From NCBI GenBank assembly GCA_017396055.1, contig JAFQND010000239.1:1-14530 (forward strand): a DNA stretch of 14,530 nucleotides. The letters run 5' to 3'. This document shows, piece by piece, positions 1-14,530 of this stretch. How positions within the stretch are numbered: position 1 is the first letter of the stretch; every line of letters starts with the position of its first letter. Both the position numbers and the translations under genes were made by a program. Below the pieces are notes generated by a model that was given only the letters and a program-made list of their open reading frames with translations, did not search any database and was not told the origin of the DNA. This DNA comes from Oscillospiraceae bacterium (GTDB lineage Bacteria; Bacillota; Clostridia; Oscillospirales; Ruminococcaceae).

Positions 1-466
1 CCCGCAGCTGATAGTCTCCGCTTTCCAGTCTGCCGCAGACCGTTACGGAGTTTTTGTCTTTCTGAAAGAGAAAGCCCTTTTCGCGGCAGAGCTCCTCATA
101 GAGGTCCAGCGGTCTTTCCAGAAGCCTTTCACTGCCGCGCAAAGTAATAGGTTTGCCCAGACAGAGCGCCAGCGGAATGAAAAACCGCAGGGTGCTGCCG
201 CTTTCACGGCACTCCAGAACGGGGGATTCTGTCTGCATAAAGCCGCTTGGGTCAATGGTCACGATGTCTTTGTCGATGGTGATTTCTGCGCCGAGGGCTT
301 TGAGACAGTCGATACTCGCCAGAATGTCCTCACTTCGGTCCACACCGGACAGAACACAGACTTGTCCGGACAGAGCCGCCCCGATCAGATATCTGTGCGC
401 CATGCTTTTTGACGCGGGTGCATCTATTTTTCCTGTAAGGGTACAGGGTTTGAATGTCGCGGTCAT
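1..466 (-). CDS. aroA: 3-phosphoshikimate 1-carboxyvinyltransferase (EPSP synthase), 3' end outside window
   Basis: This enzyme joins phosphoenolpyruvate to shikimate-3-phosphate in the cytoplasm, the sixth step of the shikimate pathway. The first 155 codons are present; the rest runs off the window start. The N-terminus has the family's substrate-binding segment PASKSMAHRYLIGAAL near residues 18-33. Further on, ESGSTLRFFIPLAL near residues 89-102 is the clostridial form of the NAGTA/ESGST-type loop. The ATG at 466-464 was chosen because GGAGAG lies 8 nt upstream (475-480). It starts 59 nt after the pheA stop with no terminator between, so it is the third gene of the aroF-pheA-aroA transcript and should share the leader attenuator. 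Family assignment is secure; completeness of the C-terminal half cannot be judged here. Confidence 0.93.
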   Translation of the reverse strand, partial: MTATFKPCTLTGKIDAPASKSMAHRYLIGAALSGQVCVLSGVDRSEDILASIDCLKALGAEITIDKDIVTIDPSGFMQTESPVLECRESGSTLRFFIPLALCLGKPITLRGSERLLERPLDLYEELCREKGFLFQKDKNSVTVCGRLESGDYQLR

Positions 467-525: not shown

Positions 526-1614
526 TCATATCTCGGCGTGCGGTGCAAAAGTTCCGCACACTTTCAGCTTGTCACAGACCCTGCTCAGTTCCTCCAGCAT
601 CTTCTGACCGTCTTCGGTGTCGAGGGTGCTGTCGATCTCGATATAGAAATAATACTGCCAGGAGTGTTTCTTCAGCGGCCGGCTGCGAAGGGCCGTCATA
701 TTATAGCCGTATTTGCCGATAATGCTGATGGCGTTTGCGAGAGAACCGGCTTCATGCTTTACTGTGAACATCAGGATCGAACTGGACAATGCGGGCGAAT
801 TGGCCTTCACCTTGGAAAGCACCGCAAAGCGGGTGGTGTTCTCGCCGCTTGTGTTGATGTTGGCTTCCAGAATGCTGAGACCGTAGAGTTCGGCGGTTTC
901 GGCGCTGGCGATGGCTCCCAGCGATTTGTCGTTGGCATCTGCCACCATTTTTGCCGCCACGGCGGTATTGGTCGCCTGTTCTGCGTCAAGACCGCGCATT
1001 TCGATATAGTCATGACATTGGGCAAGAGCCTGGGGATGACTGATCACTTTTTTTATATCCGAGACAGATGCGCCGGGAATACCGAGAAGATTCTGGTGGA
1101 TCTCGAGCTCATAGATTCCGTTGATGAAAAGCCCGCCCGAAAAGATCAGGTCGATGGTCTGTCCCACTTCGCCGGCATAGCTGTTTTCGATGGGCAGGAC
1201 CGCTGCGTCGCTTTCCCCGTTCACAACGGAATCGTAAGCCGCCTTGAAGTCCCTACAGGGGATCATAGTACTTTCGGGGAAGATCCTGCCCGCGGCAATG
1301 TGGGCAAAGGCACCTTCCACGCCGCTGTATGCCACCTTCAGACCGCTCTGCATCCGGTACTGATAGGTTCTGGATATGGTCATCATCTGCTTGAGAAAGT
1401 CGATATAATAGCTTTTCAGCACCTGGTCTTCAACGAGCGCGGCATTTTTTTCGATGACCGCGTCTTCTCTCTTCTGATCGAGGACGGGCAGACCGAACTC
1501 TTTTTTATGCTCATAGACCATCTCGACAGCTTTCATCCGTCTGATGAACAGTTCTGCCATCTGTGCATCTGCTTCGTTTATGATTTTTCTTGCTTCCTCC
1601 AGCTTGCTTGCCAT
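526..1614 (-). CDS. pheA: bifunctional chorismate mutase / prephenate dehydratase (P-protein)
   Basis: The protein (362 aa) converts chorismate to prephenate and then to phenylpyruvate, the committed branch to phenylalanine. Residues 1-85 are an AroQ-type chorismate mutase domain (helical, with IRRMKAVEMVYEHK and KREDAVIEKN). Residues 92-268 are the prephenate dehydratase domain, with PIENSYAGEVGQTIDL and the catalytic TRF at 261-263. Residues 280-355 are an ACT domain, with AGSLANA and RSRPLK matching the GALV and ESRP phenylalanine-binding motifs, so feedback inhibition by Phe is expected. An ATG six codons further upstream (1632) is open, but it overlaps the ribosome site AAAGGA; the ATG at 1614 sits 9 nt after that site and gives the usual family N-terminus. 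It lies between aroF and aroA in one operon. Confidence 0.95.
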   Translation of the reverse strand: MASKLEEARKIINEADAQMAELFIRRMKAVEMVYEHKKEFGLPVLDQKREDAVIEKNAALVEDQVLKSYYIDFLKQMMTISRTYQYRMQSGLKVAYSGVEGAFAHIAAGRIFPESTMIPCRDFKAAYDSVVNGESDAAVLPIENSYAGEVGQTIDLIFSGGLFINGIYELEIHQNLLGIPGASVSDIKKVISHPQALAQCHDYIEMRGLDAEQATNTAVAAKMVADANDKSLGAIASAETAELYGLSILEANINTSGENTTRFAVLSKVKANSPALSSSILMFTVKHEAGSLANAISIIGKYGYNMTALRSRPLKKHSWQYYFYIEIDSTLDTEDGQKMLEELSRVCDKLKVCGTFAPHAEI

Positions 1615-1637
1615 ATCACTGCGTCCTTTCAAAGAGA

Positions 1638-1666
1638 GGCCTCACCTGTGCGGAACAAGTGAGGCC
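1638..1666 (-). other. intercistronic hairpin between aroF and pheA
   Basis: GGCCTCAC and GTGAGGCC form a perfect 8-bp stem around a 13-nt loop, with one more G-U pair possible, about 24 nt upstream of the pheA start. The bases after it on the minus strand (TCTCTTTG) are only weakly T-rich, so it looks more like an mRNA-processing or stabilising hairpin, or a leaky terminator, than a strong stop. It sits inside the 115-nt gap between aroF and pheA, which has no start codon with a ribosome site other than that of pheA. Confidence 0.5.
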
Positions 1667-1729
1667 CTGATAACACAAAACGGGTAAAATTGTATCCGTA
1701 CCGCCCTGATCCACTCGCCTGTTAATTTA

Positions 1730-2758
1730 TCAAAGTTTGTCTGCCAGATCCAGAATCAGCTGTTCTGTCTTTTCCCAGCCAAGGCAGGGGTCGGTGATCG
1801 ACTTGCCGAAGACGTGTTCTCCGATACCCTGTGCGCCGTCTTCCAGATAGCTTTCGATCATCAGACCTTTTACAAGGCGCTTGATGTCGGGATTCTGTCT
1901 GCGGCTGTGTACGATATCTTTCGCAATGCGGATCTGTTCCAGATACTTTTTGCCGGAGTTGTTGTGGTTGGTATCGACAATGATAGAAGGATTAACAAGA
2001 TTGGATTTCTCGTACAGCTCTTCGACCCGCAGCAGATCCTCGTAATGATAGTTGGAAGTGCTTCTTCCGGTGAAATCAATATAACCGCGGAGAATGGCGT
2101 GGGCGTAAGAATTGCCTGCGCTGGTTACTTCCCAGCCGCGGTAGAGGAAGGTGTGGCTGGCCTGTGCGGCGACGATGGAGTTCATCATGACGCTGAGGTC
2201 GCCGCCGGTGGGGTTTTTCATGCCGACGGGCACCTCAATACCGCTTGCGGTCAGTCTATGCTGCTGGTTTTCGACAGAGCGGGCGCCGACTGCAACATAG
2301 GACAGCAGGTCGGAGAGGTAGCGGTAGTTTTCGGGATAGAGCATTTCATCTGCGCAGGAGAAGTCATAATCGCGCAGGGCAGCGAGGTGCAGCTCACGGA
2401 TGGCAACGATGCCCTTGTACATGTCGGGCTTTGCCTCGGGGTCGGGCTGATGGAGCATGCCTTTATAGCCCTGACCGGTGGTTCTGGGTTTGTTGGTGTA
2501 AATTCTCGGGATGATGATGATCTTGTCGGATACCTGTTCCTGGATCCGGCGGAGTCTGGAGATATATTCAAGAACGGGTTCGCTGTGGTCAGCGGAGCAG
2601 GGACCGATGATCAGAAGGAATTTATCCAGGTGGCCGTCAAAAACAGCCTTGATACTTTCGTCGCGCTGGGCTTTGATCATTTCCATTCGTTCGGTCAGCG
2701 GAAATTCTGCTTTGACTTCCTGGGGGATCGGGAGCTTTCTGTGGAATGTCATCTGCAT
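1730..2758 (-). CDS. aroF: 3-deoxy-7-phosphoheptulonate (DAHP) synthase, class I
   Basis: It condenses phosphoenolpyruvate with erythrose-4-phosphate, the entry step of aromatic amino acid synthesis. The 342-aa protein has the class I (AroFGH) motifs in order: GPCSADH at 52-58 with the metal-ligand Cys54, KPRTTGQGYKG at 90-100, GARSVENQQHR at 158-168, PVGMKNPTGG at 177-186, and VDTNHNNSGK carrying the metal-binding His. Length matches the family (about 340-350 aa). The first ATG is used, with GAGG 9 nt upstream. It is the first structural gene after the leader peptide and attenuator, so transcription into it should depend on Phe/Tyr-tRNA charging. Which amino acid inhibits the enzyme allosterically cannot be told from the motifs, so the symbol is the generic one for the class. 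Confidence 0.94.
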   Translation of the reverse strand: MQMTFHRKLPIPQEVKAEFPLTERMEMIKAQRDESIKAVFDGHLDKFLLIIGPCSADHSEPVLEYISRLRRIQEQVSDKIIIIPRIYTNKPRTTGQGYKGMLHQPDPEAKPDMYKGIVAIRELHLAALRDYDFSCADEMLYPENYRYLSDLLSYVAVGARSVENQQHRLTASGIEVPVGMKNPTGGDLSVMMNSIVAAQASHTFLYRGWEVTSAGNSYAHAILRGYIDFTGRSTSNYHYEDLLRVEELYEKSNLVNPSIIVDTNHNNSGKKYLEQIRIAKDIVHSRRQNPDIKRLVKGLMIESYLEDGAQGIGEHVFGKSITDPCLGWEKTEQLILDLADKL

Positions 2759-2794
2759 GGTGGATTACCTCGGTTCTTAAAAATAGATTTGGGC

Positions 2795-2845
2795 AAATAA
2801 AAAATCCACTTTCATAAGCGCCTTAAAATGCGCAGCGAAAGCGGA
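2795..2845 (-). terminator. attenuator terminator of the aroF-pheA-aroA operon
   Basis: On the minus strand TCCGCTTTC (2845-2837) pairs with GAAAGTGGA (2813-2805) over nine positions including one G-U. An inner GCGC/GCGC helix follows beyond a small internal loop. The stem runs directly into TTTTTTATTT (2804-2795). It lies between the leader peptide stop and the aroF start, so it would cut the operon short before any structural gene. Two further pairs (G-U, A-U) can extend the base of the stem. Confidence 0.85.
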
Positions 2846-2962
2846 CTGTCCGTTGTTGTTTACTCCAATGGCACTTAGACCTTGGATGTCACAGGAAGCG
2901 GGCAGCCCTTTTTAAAGTAATAAAAGTAAAAGTAAAACTTACCGTTCAACATTCTGGCTGCC
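2843..2962 (-). promoter_or_regulatory. leader RNA with alternative pairings (attenuator segments 1, 2, 3)
   Basis: Segment 1 GGCAGCC (2962-2956, touching the ribosome site) is perfectly complementary to GGCTGCC (2907-2901) within segment 2, which lies just after the aromatic codons. Segment 2 GGGCTGCCCG (2908-2899) can instead pair with segment 3 CGGACAGTCC (2852-2843) at nine of ten positions, one of them a G-U. Segment 3 includes the outer 3-5 nt of the terminator's 5' arm. The 1:2, 2:3 and 3:4 layout is that of trp/phe-type attenuation. The overlap of segment 3 with the terminator stem is short, so mutual exclusion rests on opening the base of that stem. A separate small hairpin, CCAAGG with CC(A)TTGG, spans the peptide stop codon. 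Confidence 0.65.
2875..2952 (-). CDS. Phe/Tyr-rich leader peptide (attenuation peptide), 25 aa
   Basis: A short reading frame starts at ATG 2952-2950 after a strong ribosome site AAGGAGG (2967-2961, 8 nt spacing) and ends at TAA 2877-2875. Residues 6-13 are FYFYFYYF, eight aromatic codons in a row (four TTT for Phe; three TAC and one TAT for Tyr), then KKGCPLP. The frame follows a near-consensus promoter by about 30 nt and precedes an intrinsic terminator and aroF. This is the architecture of a ribosome-mediated attenuator: scarce Phe-tRNA or Tyr-tRNA would stall the ribosome on these codons, just before RNA segment 2. The peptide probably has no function of its own. The assignment is inferred from sequence but is hard to explain otherwise. 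Confidence 0.88.
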   Translation of the reverse strand: MLNGKFYFYFYYFKKGCPLPVTSKV

Positions 2963-2985
2963 TCCTTCTTGATTGATTATTACGA

Positions 2986-3014
2986 ATTATAGCACACTAA
3001 ATCGATAAAGTCAA
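2986..3014 (-). promoter_or_regulatory. promoter of the aroF leader and operon
   Basis: TTGACT (3014-3009) is separated by 17 nt from TATAAT (2991-2986), which is preceded by TGC to give an extended -10. Transcription would start near 2979, placing the leader-peptide ATG about 27 nt downstream. Confidence 0.85.
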
Positions 3015-3060
3015 ATGTTTTTTTCAATATTTCTGAAATTTTTTTTGCGAAAAATCTGTT

Positions 3061-3105
3061 TTGTAAAGCAAAGCCGCCGAAATCCCGATGTGAAATTTCG
3101 GCGGC
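3061..3105 (-). terminator. intrinsic terminator after the GH43-like gene
   Basis: GCCGCCGAAAT (3073-3083) and ATTTCGGCGGC (3095-3105) form an 11-bp perfect stem with an 11-nt loop. On the minus strand it is followed by TTTGCTTTAC. It lies 43 nt past the stop of the gene ending at 3149 and just upstream of the aroF promoter, so it separates the two operons. Confidence 0.8.
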
Positions 3106-3148
3106 CCGGAACAGGGAATATTTTATTTTCGGCTGCTTACAGATTTTT

Positions 3149-4048
3149 TCAGAAACGCCAGTCGCAGTCGATCTCTGCATTTCTGTCACAGGTGAGAATG
3201 CCGTCTATGACCTTGAGCTCTGCCATCTGAACGGCACTGCGGGGATGATAATCCGGGTCCGGATGGGTGAAGTAGACGATGAAGGCACGATCGCCCGCGA
3301 CGAATACATCGGCATGGGCACCTCGGTAATTGTCATTTCTGCGCAGACCGTCTTCCACGAGGATATCCGTCTTCTGGCGGACAAAATGCTCACAGTCATC
3401 AGAGGAATAAACGGCCTGGCCTTTCCAGATATCGGCGATCAGCCAGTATTTTCCGGCAAACTCAAAGACATTGGGGCCTTCCTGGGGCTGATCACCCGCC
3501 GCAATGCCCCTGTATTCCCAGGTATAAAGATCGTCGCTGTCGGCATAACAGGTGGCCGAGTTCTGGTATTCGTCTTTGTACCACATGCGCCATTTTCCGT
3601 TCGGAAGTCTGAAGCAGCAGGGATCAATGATCCGCGCAGAACCGAAGCTGAGGCTTCCCACATGGTCCCAGTAAAACAGATTTGCCGAGGTATAATGCTC
3701 GATGGAGGCATTGCCTTCCCAATCGGCATAGACACCGACGATATAAGAGACATACATATGGTACAGTCCGTCATCGGGAGAATAGACGATCTCAGGCGCC
3801 CAATAGGTGTTGTGTCCGAACTCAAAGCCCAGATCGAGCGCACCGCGGTAATGCCAGCGGGCACCGTCGGACGATTCTGCGACGCCGATCGCCGTGCCGT
3901 AACAGTAGGATACATTTTCGACCTGCTGATTTGCGCGACGCTGGGTATAGAACATATAGAATTTTCCGTCCGATTCTTTGCGGATCACCATGGGATCCGC
4001 AGCGCCGTCATAGATCGGATCTTTGTAAAGGGGAGCGGGAACTTTCAT
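3149..4048 (-). CDS. GH43-like glycoside hydrolase (five-bladed beta-propeller)
   Basis: The 299-aa protein has the repeated Asp-Pro and aromatic motifs of GH43-type propellers. The three expected acidic residues are all visible: Asp18 in GAADPM (base), Asp142 in RIIDPC (pKa modulator) and Glu190 in QEGPNV (acid). WAPEIVYSPDDGLYHMYVSY at 83-102 is a typical blade strand. There is no signal peptide, so it would act inside the cell on short imported oligosaccharides, such as arabinosides or xylosides; the substrate cannot be read from the sequence. The ATG has GAGG about 6 nt upstream. It follows the ABC lipoprotein gene by 71 nt, has no strong promoter of its own and is closed by a terminator, so it is probably the last gene of that operon, an odd partner for molybdenum genes. 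Conserved active-site residues argue that it is functional. Confidence 0.82.
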   Translation of the reverse strand: MKVPAPLYKDPIYDGAADPMVIRKESDGKFYMFYTQRRANQQVENVSYCYGTAIGVAESSDGARWHYRGALDLGFEFGHNTYWAPEIVYSPDDGLYHMYVSYIVGVYADWEGNASIEHYTSANLFYWDHVGSLSFGSARIIDPCCFRLPNGKWRMWYKDEYQNSATCYADSDDLYTWEYRGIAAGDQPQEGPNVFEFAGKYWLIADIWKGQAVYSSDDCEHFVRQKTDILVEDGLRRNDNYRGAHADVFVAGDRAFIVYFTHPDPDYHPRSAVQMAELKVIDGILTCDRNAEIDCDWRF

Positions 4049-10893: not shown

Positions 10894-13008
10894 TTATTCT
10901 TCGCGAGATTCCAGAGCCTTCAGAATTTCTTCCGGGCTCAGCGGCAGTTTGTTGAGTTCTGCACCCGATGCCTGACGGACCGCTTCATTGATCGCGGCGG
11001 CAATAGAGACCGTGGAGACTTCCGCGGCGCCTTTTACGCCCATAGGACCGGAGACTTCATAAGCGTCCACATGATAGCTTGCGATATTGGGTACATCCAT
11101 TGCGGTCGGCATCAGATAGGTGGAGAAGTCCTTGTGGACCAGTACGCCGTCTTTGAACGAGCAGTCCTCACCGAGGCAGAAGCCGATGGACATGCCGATA
11201 CCGCCCTGGATCTGACCGGAAAGGCCCAGAGGATTGATCACCTTGCCGCATTCGGTAGCTGCTGCAATATCCAGAAGCGAAACGCTGCCCGTGACCGGGT
11301 CGACGCGCAGTTTTACTGCCTGTGCCACAAAGGTATACATCGCATGGGGGAAGCCGATACGGCCCATATCCATGGTGGATTCGGGGAAAGCAGCCTCGCC
11401 CTTTGCCGGAACGATGCCGCACTCTGCTGCTTCTTTTGCTTTTTTATACTGCTTCACCGCAGCCATCAGAGCGTTGCCGGCGATAAATACCGAGCGGGAT
11501 GCGGCGGTGGGACCGCAGTCTTCGGTCTTGTCGGTATCTGCCATGACCATATGGATGTTTTCGATATCTGTTTCCAGCAGATCCGCCGCCATGGCAGCCA
11601 GAGCGGTGCCGCTGCCCTGACCGATGTCTACAAGGCCGACGCCGATATCAAAGCCGCCGTCTTCACGTTCCTGCACAGAGACTTTTGCATTGTCGGTGAT
11701 CTTCTGGCCGAGTCCGCAGCTCAAAAAGCCGCCTGCTACACCGTATCCCACATAAGGATCGGTATTGGCCGCACGCTCTTTCCACAGATCAGATTCCTGT
11801 ACCAGCTTCAGCGCATCTTTCAGACCGACACAGTGATCCATCGGCTGACCGAGGGAACCGGTGGAACCTTTTTCCAGAGCGTTGTCGAGACGCATCTGAA
11901 TGGGGTCGAGTCCCAGTCTGGCAATGGCGCGGCTGATGATGGACTCTGTCGCAAAAGCTCCCTGAGGGGCGCCGAAACCGCGCATTGCATGGGCGGTAGC
12001 CTTGTTGGTATAGTAAGTTTCAGTTTTCAGGCGCACATTGGGAATATCGTAAGGACCGGTGAAATGCTCGGTAAACAGACCATGGACAGATGCGCCATAG
12101 CCCGCGTATGCGCCGGTATCCAGAACTGCGCTGCCGTCAAAGGCCAGCATTTTGCCTTCCTTCGAGAAGCCCATCTTTACATGCATCTTGATGCCGTGAC
12201 GCTTATAGGTGCAGGCCAGAACTTCCCGTCTGTCCAGAACGATTTTTGCCGGACGCTTGGTCAGCCAGGAAACCAGACAGGGATAGATCTGACAGGTATG
12301 TCCGTCTTTGCCGCCGAAGCCGCCGCCGACAAAAGCTGCGCGCACGCGTACCTGCTCGGGCGTAAGACCCAGAGCGCGGCAGATCATGACTCTGTCAGCA
12401 AAAACATTCTGAGAGGAAGTATATGCCATCAGCCGGTCATCTTCCACATAAGCAAAACAGGCATCAGGCTCCATATAGCCGTGATCCTGCGGGGGAGTTT
12501 CAAAATCATCCTCCACGATCAGATAGCTTTCCGCAAAGCCTTTTTCCACATTGCCTTTTTCATTGAAGAAATCGGTCAGAAGGTTCGATTCACCGTGCAG
12601 CACGGGCATCGCAGGATTTTTTGCATCCTCGACATCACGGACGACCGGAAGCAGGTCATATTCGACCTTTACCAGCTTTGCTGCTGCCTCTGCTTTTTCT
12701 CTGGTATCTGCTGCGACGACGGCAATGGGTTCACCCAGATAGAGGATCCGTTCACCGGCGAAGACCGGGGTATCACAAAAAATGTCTGCAACAATATTTT
12801 CGGCGCAGTCTTTTCCGGTAAAGACCATTACATCTTCGGGAAGCGCAGAAACGTCAATGCTGCGGACCGAGCCGTGGCTGATTGTCGAACGGACAAGGAC
12901 CAGCTCGAGCATATTCTCCATACGGTAGTCGCCTGCATACAGCGCACGGCCGGTGGCTTTGTCCAGACCTTCCAGCCGCCCGCGTTTTTCTCCAACGTAT
13001 TGTTTCAT
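10894..13008 (-). CDS. xdhA: xanthine dehydrogenase-family molybdopterin-binding subunit
   Basis: The catalytic subunit (704 aa, somewhat shorter than the usual 740-780) binds Mo-molybdopterin cytosine dinucleotide and hydroxylates a purine or related heterocycle. The family motifs are present: DHGYMEPDACFAY at 175-187, FVGGGFGGKDG at 226-236, AMRGFGAPQGAFATE at 341-355 and GVKGAAEVSTVSIAAAI at 657-673. By alignment to bovine xanthine oxidase, Glu663 is the catalytic base (Glu1261), Phe345 matches Phe914, Arg270 probably Arg880, and Asp235 sits where purine enzymes have Glu802. AAAGGA precedes the ATG by about 10 nt. With the FAD and FeS genes and a purine permease downstream, purine oxidation is the likely role; other molybdenum hydroxylase substrates (for example nicotinate-like) are not excluded. 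Confidence 0.93.
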   Translation of the reverse strand: MKQYVGEKRGRLEGLDKATGRALYAGDYRMENMLELVLVRSTISHGSVRSIDVSALPEDVMVFTGKDCAENIVADIFCDTPVFAGERILYLGEPIAVVAADTREKAEAAAKLVKVEYDLLPVVRDVEDAKNPAMPVLHGESNLLTDFFNEKGNVEKGFAESYLIVEDDFETPPQDHGYMEPDACFAYVEDDRLMAYTSSQNVFADRVMICRALGLTPEQVRVRAAFVGGGFGGKDGHTCQIYPCLVSWLTKRPAKIVLDRREVLACTYKRHGIKMHVKMGFSKEGKMLAFDGSAVLDTGAYAGYGASVHGLFTEHFTGPYDIPNVRLKTETYYTNKATAHAMRGFGAPQGAFATESIISRAIARLGLDPIQMRLDNALEKGSTGSLGQPMDHCVGLKDALKLVQESDLWKERAANTDPYVGYGVAGGFLSCGLGQKITDNAKVSVQEREDGGFDIGVGLVDIGQGSGTALAAMAADLLETDIENIHMVMADTDKTEDCGPTAASRSVFIAGNALMAAVKQYKKAKEAAECGIVPAKGEAAFPESTMDMGRIGFPHAMYTFVAQAVKLRVDPVTGSVSLLDIAAATECGKVINPLGLSGQIQGGIGMSIGFCLGEDCSFKDGVLVHKDFSTYLMPTAMDVPNIASYHVDAYEVSGPMGVKGAAEVSTVSIAAAINEAVRQASGAELNKLPLSPEEILKALESREE

Positions 13009-13058
13009 TCCTGATTCATCCTTTCTGCAAATAAACAGATGATTTGAATACCATGCTC

Positions 13059-13087
13059 ATTATACCATTTATTTCCCATGGGCGCAA
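13059..13087 (-). promoter_or_regulatory. promoter of the xdhABC operon
   Basis: TATAAT (13064-13059) is preceded by TGG, an extended -10, about 50 nt upstream of xdhA. The -35 at 17 nt spacing is weak (TTGCGC, 13087-13082), as is common for regulated promoters. It overlaps an inverted repeat listed separately. Confidence 0.7.
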
Positions 13088-13107
13088 TTATAAATTGCCC
13101 GGCAATT
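13084..13107. promoter_or_regulatory. palindromic operator candidate at the xdh promoter
   Basis: Three hexamers alternate in orientation: GCAATT (13084-13089), AATTGC (13093-13098) and GCAATT (13102-13107), each 3 nt apart. The last two extend to AATTGCC-C-GGCAATT, a 7-bp perfect inverted repeat. The array overlaps and lies upstream of the -35. It looks like a binding site for a dimeric regulator; which one is unknown. Confidence 0.55.
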
Positions 13108-13140
13108 TCTTTTTATATTGTCTTAGCTGTACGACGGATA

Positions 13141-13169
13141 CTTATCAAAATCTTATCAGCGATGATAAG
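13141..13169. promoter_or_regulatory. CTTATCA / TGATAAG repeat cluster upstream of xdhA
   Basis: CTTATCA occurs at 13141-13147 and 13152-13158 (11 bp apart), followed by its inverse TGATAAG at 13163-13169. The second and third form a 7-bp inverted repeat with a GCGA loop. It is about 90-115 nt upstream of the inferred xdh start, a usual place for an activator or distal operator. There is no T-run after it, so it is not a terminator. Confidence 0.45.
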
Positions 13170-13183
13170 AATAATATATGTCA

Positions 13184-13226
13184 AAATAAATAAGAGGTCT
13201 GAAATCGAACGATTTCAGACCTCTTA
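13184..13226 (-). terminator. strong hairpin terminator, 16-bp perfect stem
   Basis: TAAGAGGTCTGAAATC (13191-13206) and GATTTCAGACCTCTTA (13211-13226) pair perfectly around a 4-nt loop. On the minus strand it is followed by TTTATTTT. It would end a transcript coming from about 13531, not from the AraC gene, which has its own terminator at 13661-13689. Confidence 0.75.
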
Positions 13227-13531
13227 GGATCAATATGCGAAATTATTCCCACTCGCTTACGAGTTCCTTCCCACAGTTACTTTTCGCCTTATTTTGGGCT
13301 GATTCCCGTGAGATTTCTCTCAAAATTTCTCGTTTTTCTCTGTATTCTCTGTGCTCTCAGCACGTTTTGTACTGTTTTGGTATCAAAGTCTGGTATCAAT
13401 TCTCCGAAAAATTGGCGAAGAAAAATTCGTTATTCTTTTCCGGTAAGTGATACTTAGCTCTGCACAACAGTTCAACTGGCTTCTATGTTTGGATACAAAG
13501 GGGTATGTAAAGGTCGTGTTTCTTTTAGAGT
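13191..13531 (-). other. unexplained transcription unit, possible decayed gene or ncRNA
   Basis: A promoter-like site (13566-13538) and a strong terminator (13226-13184) bracket about 340 nt with no intact gene. One minus-strand frame reads as fairly protein-like pieces between stops. KPVELLCRAKYHLPEK begins at 13482, the frame meets TGA at 13398-13396 and 13359-13357, and it ends at KELVSEWE with TAA at 13245-13243. The first of these stops could be a mutated Trp codon. TGGTATCAA is repeated twice on the plus strand (13378-13386 and 13391-13399). I do not recognise a family. Options are the tail of a decayed gene, perhaps from a mobile element, or a structured RNA. No tmRNA, RNase P or 6S signature is visible. 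Confidence 0.4.
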
Positions 13532-13537
13532 AGCTAT

Positions 13538-13566
13538 ATTATAGCAGAAAAATGTGAACGATTCAA
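13538..13566 (-). promoter_or_regulatory. probable promoter of the unexplained unit
   Basis: TTGAAT (13566-13561), 17 nt, then TATAAT (13543-13538) preceded by TGC (extended -10). Transcription would start near 13531. No start codon with a good ribosome site follows. Confidence 0.55.
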
Positions 13567-13660
13567 CTATAGCGATCAATTCATGCAATGCTCCAATTAT
13601 TTTGTGCGGTTGTTTTAACCTGACCAAATCAAACACTCGACTGAGTGTACAACCATAAAA
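13567..13660. other. rest of the 13009-13693 gene-free stretch
   Basis: AT-rich DNA between the AraC terminator and the orphan promoter. The only structure seen is the inverted repeat ACACTC-GACT-GAGTGT (13633-13648), with no T-run. No ribosome site, RNA gene or coding frame is visible here. Confidence 0.5.
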
Positions 13661-13689
13661 TATGCCGCCCGCAAAACACGGGCGGCATA
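13657..13689 (-). terminator. intrinsic terminator of the AraC-family gene
   Basis: TATGCCGCCCG (13661-13671) and CGGGCGGCATA (13679-13689) form an 11-bp perfect, GC-rich stem with a 7-nt loop, followed on the minus strand by TTTTATGG. It begins 5 nt after the gene's stop codon. Confidence 0.88.
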
Positions 13690-13693
13690 AGGG

Positions 13694-14530
13694 TTATTCG
13701 CACTTAATAATAGGTATCCACAACTCACGGTACCGTTCACCACTTTTGTCTCGTCTGTACCAATGAGATACCACAATTTCCGGAGAATCTGCTAATTGAT
13801 ATCCCGATGTAGGAAGCCATTCACTTGCAATCTTTCGCCTAAGTTCAAGAAAAACAAGTGTTGGATATGAGCATCTCTCTGTTTCAAATATTGCATAAGT
13901 GCATTTAGGTATGGTGATGTTCTCATAATGACTCGCAAATTCTTCACCGAGGATACATTCCTTATTAAGGTTATTTCTGTAATATTCGGTCAATTGATTT
14001 GCTATATAAAAGTCGTATCCGGTATCGTCAATGTTTGCAATGACATTATACTCCGTTTCAATATCACCAGCCAAGGCACCCAAAATGTATTGCCACGGTC
14101 TTGTTGTAACGTACATGTCTTTTTCTTGTTCTTCTCGTTCTCCGGGCACACCTTCAAAACGACGTTTATATCCCGTCAAAATGATTTCGCCTTTTTCTTC
14201 AATCCTGTAATTCATAGTACAACCGCCTTCCAAAGAAAATTTAAGTACAAGACGGGAATAGGATTTCAGCATACTACCGTTATTTCGAGCCTGCGATGGC
14301 AATATACCGTGGAACTTCTGGAATGCTTTTGCAAAGCTGTCCGGACTTTCATAGCCGTACTTCAGCGCAACGTCAATAACCTTTGCTTTCCCCGTGGCAA
14401 GCTCTGTACCGGCAAGCGAAAGCCTGCGATTCCGGATATACTCGCCGATGGTGAAACCGCAAAGAATACTAAACACACGTTGGAAGTGATAGCTTGATGA
14501 AAAGCTCTGCGCTGCGACCATCTCATAATC
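13694..14530 (-). CDS. AraC-family transcriptional regulator with GyrI-like effector domain, 5' end outside window
   Basis: The open frame reaches the window edge (Asp-Tyr-Glu encoded by the last nine bases), so the true start and the first helices are outside; the ATG at 14521 is internal. The visible 278 residues begin inside the first helix-turn-helix (SSSYHFQRVFSILCGFTIGEY), followed by the second (VIDVALKYGYESPDSFAKAFQKFHGILPSQAR). From about residue 105 a GyrI/AraC_E_bind domain runs to the end (MNYRIEEKGEIILTGYKRRFEG to YRELWIPIIK). This layout is that of Rob/SoxS-like or BmrR-like regulators, which sense small, often cationic or drug-like ligands. It is more AT-rich than the core genes and has no target operon in view, so its targets are unknown. 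A terminator closes it. Confidence 0.9.
   Translation of the reverse strand, partial: DYEMVAAQSFSSSYHFQRVFSILCGFTIGEYIRNRRLSLAGTELATGKAKVIDVALKYGYESPDSFAKAFQKFHGILPSQARNNGSMLKSYSRLVLKFSLEGGCTMNYRIEEKGEIILTGYKRRFEGVPGEREEQEKDMYVTTRPWQYILGALAGDIETEYNVIANIDDTGYDFYIANQLTEYYRNNLNKECILGEEFASHYENITIPKCTYAIFETERCSYPTLVFLELRRKIASEWLPTSGYQLADSPEIVVSHWYRRDKSGERYRELWIPIIKCE

Follow-up and report, generated by a model that had tools for sequence, protein, structure and literature searches.

The window analysed here, that is, the whole stretch of 14,530 nucleotides of contig JAFQND010000239.1 from an Oscillospiraceae bacterium, carries the aromatic-pathway genes aroF, pheA and aroA on its minus strand, and ahead of them a promoter, a short open reading frame (ORF) rich in Phe and Tyr codons and a series of RNA segments with alternative pairing partners. 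In the order of transcription, these features are as follows:

3014-2986, minus strand: sigma-70-type promoter TTGACT-17-TATAAT, with TTGACT at 3014-3009, a 17-nt spacer and TATAAT at 2991-2986
2965-2961, minus strand: Shine-Dalgarno sequence of the leader, GGAGG, 8 nt ahead of the ATG at 2952
2962-2956, minus strand: segment 1, GGCAGCC, which overlaps and follows the Shine-Dalgarno sequence; the least secure part
2952-2875 including TAA, minus strand: leader ORF MLNGKFYFYFYYFKKGCPLPVTSKV, 25 codons plus TAA
2914-2937, minus strand: eight aromatic control codons, TTT TAC TTT TAC TTT TAT TAC TTT (FYFYFYYF)
2908-2898, minus strand: segment 2, GGGCTGCCCGC, partner of segment 1 or segment 3
2864-2886, minus strand: stop-codon hairpin of the leader, lying within the antiterminator
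2853-2843, minus strand: segment 3, ACGGACAGTCC, antiterminator partner of segment 2
2847-2799, minus strand: intrinsic terminator (3:4), predicted stem 2847-2803 and U-run 2804-2799
1730..2758, minus strand: aroF, DAHP synthase class I (Pfam PF00793)
526..1614, minus strand: pheA, chorismate mutase-prephenate dehydratase (Pfam PF01817, PF00800); the ATG at 1614 is our choice of start, the ORF list giving TTG at 1632
2..466, minus strand: aroA, EPSP synthase, cut by the window end (Pfam PF00275)

In a promoter scan, the leader promoter has 11 of 12 consensus bases with a TG ahead of its -10 element, and ranks first among the three promoter-like sites of the interval 1600-3200 (1.8 expected by chance). 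On neither strand does the window hold a second ORF of 10-60 codons that combines a Shine-Dalgarno match of at least 5/6 with at least five Phe or Tyr codons in nine, and among 2000 dinucleotide shuffles of the 390-nt intergenic region, judged by a good Shine-Dalgarno sequence and the Phe/Tyr count in nine codons, none reached eight or more, one reached at least six and three at least five. The end of the terminator U-run (2799) lies 40 nt from aroF. The gap between aroF and pheA (1612-1732, minus strand) measures 115 nt in the window, compared with about 16-29 nt in the six leader-bearing relatives examined, and contains a 13-bp hairpin with a weak T-rich stretch behind it; this is possibly a partial terminator or an RNA processing site, and with a z of -1.43 its fold is an ordinary one.

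The GGCAGCC of segment 1 is complementary over 7 bp to GGCTGCC at 2907-2901 (1:2), and the core of segment 2, GGGCTGCCCG at 2908-2899, pairs at 9 of 10 positions with 2852-2843 (2:3). The terminator folds with -21.5 kcal/mol (z -4.05) and the antiterminator with -24.8 kcal/mol (z -2.79), while the 1:2 region alone gives -18.4 kcal/mol (z -1.48), a value that 16 of 200 shuffles match or better. Folded as a whole and without a ribosome, the leader adopts 1:2, the stop-codon hairpin and the terminator together (-55.2 kcal/mol, z -3.25). Segment 3 shares 5 nt (2847-2843) with the terminator, at the base of its stem. The near-consensus promoter, the 25-codon frame with its ribosome-binding site and eight consecutive aromatic codons, the two complementarities and the intrinsic terminator ahead of aroF had all been named in the initial annotation, and each is borne out by these readings, the terminator also by its conservation in relatives (below). 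The terminator does not appear in the output of a simple terminator scan because that scan admits loops of 3-8 nt only; it returned four plus-strand stems against 1.7 expected, one of which (2840-2854) is the segment-3 palindrome.

Given that T-boxes hold the same place in 8 of the best 80 relatives described below, a T-box or metabolite riboswitch within the window leader had to be considered. A search of the window with the 4227 families of Rfam 15, known amino-acid leader families included, returned no match at gathering score, and the T-box family RF00230 matched neither the window nor 2760-3060 at E up to 5, a search in which that interval gave four unrelated sub-threshold matches only. 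The T-box core motif was likewise not found at the window's locus (L001), and we put the probability of such an element at close to nil.

Conservation of the module and its pairings

Relatives were collected by an AroF scan of named genomes, which gave 356 relatives, the best 80 of which were taken as loci; their titles denote assembled or uncultured genomes. The initial annotation had staked its reading on conservation of the aromatic run and the terminator in close relatives, and the reading survived this comparison, as the module stands directly ahead of aroF in 53 of these best 80 (with a broken run in L073). At two further loci of the 80 (L103 and L106), the module heads an operon that contains aroF; L106 is taken to be the same contig as L171, with which its upstream sequence agrees.

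For the analysis of pairing we aligned 59 modules from 55 loci, comprising the window, 53 aroF loci and L103, together with the second copies found at L034, L042, L052 and L076. Of these modules, 47 were picked by an aromatic ORF and a segment-3 motif, the latter defined after the sequences had been viewed, and segment 2 was no criterion; L017 was removed from the 48 rule-found rows as a chance match. The remaining 12 (10 loci and the second copies of L042 and L052) were anchored by hand. Owing to the way in which the modules were chosen, the aromatic run is necessarily in an ATG frame in all 59.

Across the 59 modules, 2:3 is paired in 86.4% of 647 cells, as against 20-43% when the arms are slid, with double changes in 8 of 11 pairs; on four of five measures none of 500 shuffles matched it, and on the fifth, the number of pair types, 13 of 500 did. 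The corresponding values for 3:4 are 85.9% of 531 cells (28-57% slid) and 8 of 9 pairs, with 0/500 shuffles on four of five measures and 147/500 on the number of pair types. When the 12 hand-anchored rows are left out, pairing stays the same (87.4% for 2:3 and 86.1% for 3:4), and double changes drop to 2 cells in one pair for 2:3 and 16 cells in three pairs for 3:4. In this core of 47 modules, 2:3 thus rests on conserved complementarity and not on covariation.

The alignment was extended to 70 rows by 11 modules (L148-L158) found with a covariance model that contains 3:4 but not 2:3, added to the 56 rows of that model (R1, whose alignment omits L101, L104 and the second copy of L042) and the three rows outside it. 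In this set 2:3 is paired in 86.3% of cells, with 22 double-change cells and 8 of 11 pairs doubly changed, most of these changes coming from hand-anchored or model-found rows; 3:4 has 42 double-change cells, a count that leans towards the model since the model includes this pairing. A C.A mismatch in the middle of 2:3 is itself conserved, the position being unpaired in 57 of 70 rows. By eye, the diverged modules L104 and L101 retain both 2:3 and 3:4 with bases changed on both arms, and in L104 segment 2, segment 3 and the terminator base have all been replaced together with pairing kept.

Partners were also swapped between the 59 modules. For 2:3, a module's own partner beats the mean of the others in 45 of 59 (p 9e-5; -13.8 vs -12.8 kcal/mol), although on average 56% of the others are at least as good, and for 3:4 the own partner is better in 52 of 59 (p 1e-9). 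For 1:2 it is better in 47 of 59 (p 2e-6; -10.9 vs -10.2 kcal/mol swapped), with 60% of the others as good. The 1:2 duplex is stronger than a control made with the Shine-Dalgarno sequence of aroF in 51 of 59 modules (-11.0 vs -6.0 kcal/mol, p 9e-9) and is paired in 74.2% of 399 cells (23-51% slid), with little covariation; its number of double-change pairs is reached by 74 of 500 shuffles. As such, 1:2 is the least secure part of the module, being complementary beyond the control but hardly covarying, and folding unremarkably in the window. Of the covarying pairs that the initial annotation had proposed to look for in relatives, 3:4 is both conserved and covarying, 2:3 is conserved in its complementarity but covaries thinly in the core, and 1:2 shows complementarity beyond the control with weak covariation. 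The short overlap between segment 3 and the terminator stem, which had been named as the weak point, is no weakness, because it has a length of 5 nt in 37 modules, and of 1-9 nt across all 59, and strips the stem of the base that adjoins the U-run; losing 2847-2843 from the stem base should suffice to abolish termination.

Leader peptide, control codons and proposed mechanism

Between segments 2 and 3 lies a further element that the earlier description lacked, namely a hairpin within which the leader stop codon falls in 58 of 59 modules. Its mean z is -2.45, with z below -1 in 55 of 59, and the two halves from one module pair better than halves exchanged between modules in 55 of 59 (p 1.3e-10). 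Given this position and the specificity of its arms for each other, the antiterminator is best viewed as a single long hairpin with interruptions, whose loop holds the stop codon. Upstream, the last aromatic codon ends exactly 5 nt ahead of segment 2 in 53 of 59 modules, a fixed spacing that is expected if the position of the ribosome matters.

Most leaders read KGCP or a near form after the aromatic run, which raised the question of whether this sequence is kept for the sake of the peptide. We rejected this explanation, because three leaders reach segment 2 in another frame (L069 with KRAARLM, L078 with SRAARIL and L094 with NKAARLL) and keep the RNA GGCTGCCCG; the first two are counted as out of frame, whereas L094 was judged by eye, its shift falling within the segment. 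These leaders bear on two further readings. The first, that the short ORF encodes a functional small protein and the terminator is an ordinary one, could appeal to the conservation among relatives of an ORF with a good Shine-Dalgarno sequence, but is barely conceivable in view of the retention of segment 2 out of frame, the variable C-terminus and length, the exact 5-nt spacing to an RNA segment and the conserved, mutually exclusive pairs. The second is arrest by the nascent peptide, in which the leader peptide would sense free aromatic amino acids, as TnaC does Trp, rather than empty A sites. It would be in keeping with the shortness of the leader and with the GCP, mostly conserved, that follows the run; to our knowledge, however, arrest peptides require fixed residues, and here Phe and Tyr are each found at every one of positions -1 to -7 of the run, while GCP is lost in L069, L078 and L094 with the RNA persisting, so that we regard arrest as very improbable.

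With the promoter, the leader ORF and the alternative pairs 2:3 and 3:4 present and conserved, and 1:2 less securely so, we infer the following mode of action. With charged tRNA-Phe and tRNA-Tyr in good supply, the ribosome would pass the aromatic codons and reach the stop codon, where it would presumably occupy the loop of the would-be antiterminator and open the stop-codon hairpin; behind it, segment 2 would return to segment 1, leaving segment 3 free, and the 3:4 terminator would halt transcription ahead of aroF. If either of the two charged tRNAs runs short, the ribosome would stall on the aromatic codons, which lie between segments 1 and 2, and in place of 1:2, segment 2 would pair with segment 3, aided by the stop-codon hairpin. 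Formation of 2:3 would remove the base of the terminator stem and let RNA polymerase enter aroF-pheA-aroA. If no ribosome is present, 1:2 would form and transcription would end. Judged from sequence, the window leader is very probably a ribosome-mediated transcription attenuator that senses charged tRNA-Phe and tRNA-Tyr; the initial annotation had read it in the same way, and the conserved module with its 2:3 and 3:4 pairs supports that reading of its predicted response.

Sensing of both amino acids, also suggested at the outset, fits the composition of the run, as both residues occur in 58 of 59 leaders (on average 3.8 Phe and 3.4 Tyr) and positions -2, -3 and -5 are mostly Tyr (41, 49 and 45 of 59). 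It would also fit the target genes, since the module heads operons with pheA and tyrA as well. That the leader senses Phe alone (or Tyr alone), with the other aromatic codons as tolerated filler in a U-rich unstructured stretch, is unlikely on these grounds, although several observations point that way: position -1 is Phe in 54 of 59, the broken run of L073 contains Phe without Tyr, and the T-boxes that replace the leader in relatives read UUC (Phe) in 14 of 14 cases. In addition, the Phe codons of the run are biased to TTT (188 TTT and 37 TTC, that is 188/225) relative to the aroF genes (181 and 222, that is 181/403; Fisher p 2e-22), a bias that could be explained either by slow decoding or by the need for an unstructured U-rich stretch.

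The enterobacterial trp and pheA attenuators consist of a leader peptide with control codons for the product, competing 1:2, 2:3 and 3:4 pairs and an intrinsic terminator before the operon. The module shares with them the leader peptide with control codons, the competing pairs 2:3 and 3:4 (1:2 less securely) and the terminator before a biosynthetic operon, and by analogy its mechanism is that of the same principle. Its own are the occurrence in Clostridia, the mixed Phe and Tyr codons, a segment 1 that overlaps the Shine-Dalgarno sequence, control codons between segments 1 and 2, the stop codon in a hairpin between segments 2 and 3 and the absence of any Rfam match; it thus differs from the enterobacterial case in the site of segment 1, the placement of the stop codon, the two amino acids and the group of organisms. 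Among other systems, the Phe leader family of Rfam is a leader-type cis-regulatory RNA. Of the same type is the Leu/phe leader RF01743 of Lactococcus lactis (PMC2864571, 2010), as far as its description was available, and the window leader gives no match to RF01743.

The closest published case that we found is the uORFC-13-1 motif (PMC8632094, 2021). According to the accessible part of that report, it has an upstream ORF, a possible promoter, a ribosome-binding site and an intrinsic terminator, lies exclusively upstream of aroF, contains a U run encoding at least one Phe, with mention of a further base-paired substructure, and has 24 representatives from Acholeplasma and unassigned environmental sequences. 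The same portion of text mentions neither Tyr codons nor tandem copies, nor any target besides aroF, unlike the module, so that the two are set apart by description only and may overlap as families. Ribosome-type his leader-peptide attenuators of Firmicutes have also been reported (PMC2965389, 2010; PMC9413887, 2022), which the available passages describe as taking the place of T-boxes on genes of the same kind and, in the case of PMC9413887, as including Eubacteriales; they have His codons and his or hisS genes, and are likened to the module by description. In the open-access literature, outside which most subscription papers lie, and as far as the sources could be viewed, we found neither a Phe/Tyr leader nor the attenuation of aromatic genes described for Clostridia.

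Target genes, distribution and exchange with T-boxes

The model R1 matched all 30 leader genomes searched, 28 of them with a single match or a tandem pair at the known locus only. A third match in G090, on another contig, is L093 of the same assembly, and a weak second match in G107 (E 0.002) was rejected, there being no such leader and unrelated neighbours. Among 30 further genomes, two of them shared with the earlier 30, 23 match at E up to 0.01; the seven without a match are those of L074, L104, L081, L090, L098, L036 and L088. In the window's own genome the sole convincing match is the window, as a second candidate (G000:C267, E 0.013) has a similar terminator with no aromatic ORF seen, and was discarded. 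Samples drawn from the order, class and phylum gave matches in 18 of 394 genomes (in seven families), 6 of 391 and 1 of 398, respectively, the last being the window's genome; searches of more than 40 genomes use stricter filters, by which weak members may be lost, and several order matches are the same contigs as loci among the best 80. The first gene in the 18 order matches is aroF in 7, pheA in 6, an aminotransferase in 3 and unread in 2, as read from the N-terminus by eye and for the window by Pfam. Four of the class matches are new relative to the order sample, two before aroF (one on the contig of L062) and two before pheA.

The larger targets are found at L171, where the module precedes pheA-aroB-aroC-aroE/aroK fusion-aroQ-aroA-tyrA-aroF, and at L172, where it precedes an aminotransferase gene and pheA, followed by what by eye are aroB-, aroC- and aroE-like genes. 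Of these assignments, the curated NCBIfam cut-offs are passed by aroB, aroC, aroQ, aroF, the aminotransferase and, in the PheA of L171, the chorismate mutase domain; aroE/aroK, aroA, tyrA, the PheA of L172 and the dehydratase parts are named from their best matches, which stay below the cut-offs. At L170, a tyrA-like gene was recognized by eye between pheA and aroF. After the convincing modules, every gene read belongs to or heads an aromatic-pathway operon (the genes downstream of L152 and L153, cut by contig ends, are uncounted), and a leader that mixes Phe and Tyr codons suits operons supplying both branches. The compact signature of the module (aromatic run, 5 nt, segment 2, stop-codon hairpin, segment 3) could serve to locate aromatic-pathway operons in those gut bacteria that are represented mostly by assembled genomes.

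In textbook accounts, attenuation by a leader peptide belongs mainly to enterobacteria and the Firmicutes depend largely on T-boxes, which bind tRNA directly and have no leader peptide. T-boxes, which the initial annotation named along with TRAP as the more frequent control of Firmicute aromatic genes, are indeed present at the aroF gene of some close relatives. Among the best 80, a T-box (RF00230) stands directly before aroF in L036, L054, L066, L071, L075, L088, L095 and L099, ending 43-150 nt from the ATG, and in six more (L030, L038, L047, L082, L089 and L097) it lies 1.8-2.0 kb upstream, with a short gene adjoining aroF that by eye was taken for an ACT-domain protein. The triplet after GAA in the specifier loop is UUC in each of these T-boxes (with one extra base ahead in L099), by our own reading of alignments that show four of the 14, and by this sequence the tRNA-charging sensors that replace the leader are of the Phe type. 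At L033, L062, L086 and L102, a T-box core motif 1.2-2.2 kb upstream, recognized by motif and eye and not by Rfam, accompanies a module before aroF. In the sequence available, neither module nor T-box at Rfam gathering score was detected in L080, L081, L090, L098, L105, L107, L108 and L109 (8 of the best 80), of which L081 retains, by eye, just a terminator-like hairpin of the module kind; L079 and L085 start too near a contig end to judge.

In the AroF tree, which was built from the window plus 79 loci (80 rows, with L085 labelled 'other' and L079 absent), 46 of 77 inner branches are open, their bootstrap not settled. The leader label requires 18 changes, at least three of them forced by well-supported branches, and is weakly clustered, since 14 of 500 shuffles are as low; the label for a T-box directly before aroF requires 7 changes and is unclustered (131 of 500 as low). 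L071 and L075, with a T-box directly before aroF, form a supported group with their sister L062, which has the module there. Gains, losses or swaps of attenuator and T-box must have occurred. The AroF proteins of relatives that bear leader or T-box at this same gene are 75-90% identical to that of the window, which opens the replacement of one tRNA-charging sensor by another to direct study, and the genome of L071 uses both for the same pathway, with a Phe T-box before aroF and the module before pheA and an aroC-like gene.

L034, L042, L052 and L076 each have two consecutive attenuators before aroF, and the second copy of L034 resembles that of L076 (MILN...KGCPQ). For mgtCBR of Salmonella, attenuators in tandem have been published, where a single leader contains two short ORFs (PMC3641672). 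Here we speculate, with somewhat better than even confidence, that the modules form an undescribed family of two-input (Phe, Tyr) ribosome-mediated attenuators that governs the aromatic pathway as its master switch in several clostridial families, before aroF, pheA and whole operons, and is exchanged with Phe T-boxes between close relatives, and that its serial doubling in some species constitutes an AND gate, in which both of two independent ribosome decisions must permit read-through, giving a sharper response. Single, doubled and lost attenuators provide a natural set for probing the role of the second copy.

The home of the window contig deserves a remark. The window AroF has its best match (90%) in another genome, as against 58-65% in its own genus, and PheA shows the same (79% vs 35-40%); the NCS2-type permease of the window is 62-68% identical to family f13 and 66% to one f16 genome, compared with 44-56% in its own family. 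The genes of the contig that were compared are closer to other families of the order than to the genus of the assembly that contains it. No module was found in other genomes of the window's family among those drawn from the order, class and phylum. The contig may therefore sit in the wrong bin, and transfer and mis-binning both fit; the reading of the element is unaffected. GC content drops to 0.40 at 13001-14500 of the window, from 0.50-0.57 over most of the remainder. At L101, in a record titled Treponema bryantii, a module with re-paired segments stands before aroF on a contig labelled as spirochaete, by either transfer or mis-binning.

Two more of the best 80 loci are worth recording. In L074, which has neither the module nor a T-box, a short ORF of another kind, with much Phe and Asn (NFNNNFAFSFSFFGF), lies 193 nt before aroF; it has a strong terminator-like hairpin of its own and is perhaps an independent Phe attenuator. 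L098 has, by eye, a promoter-like stretch and a Shine-Dalgarno sequence directly before aroF with no attenuator, and is perhaps a natural case of attenuator loss.
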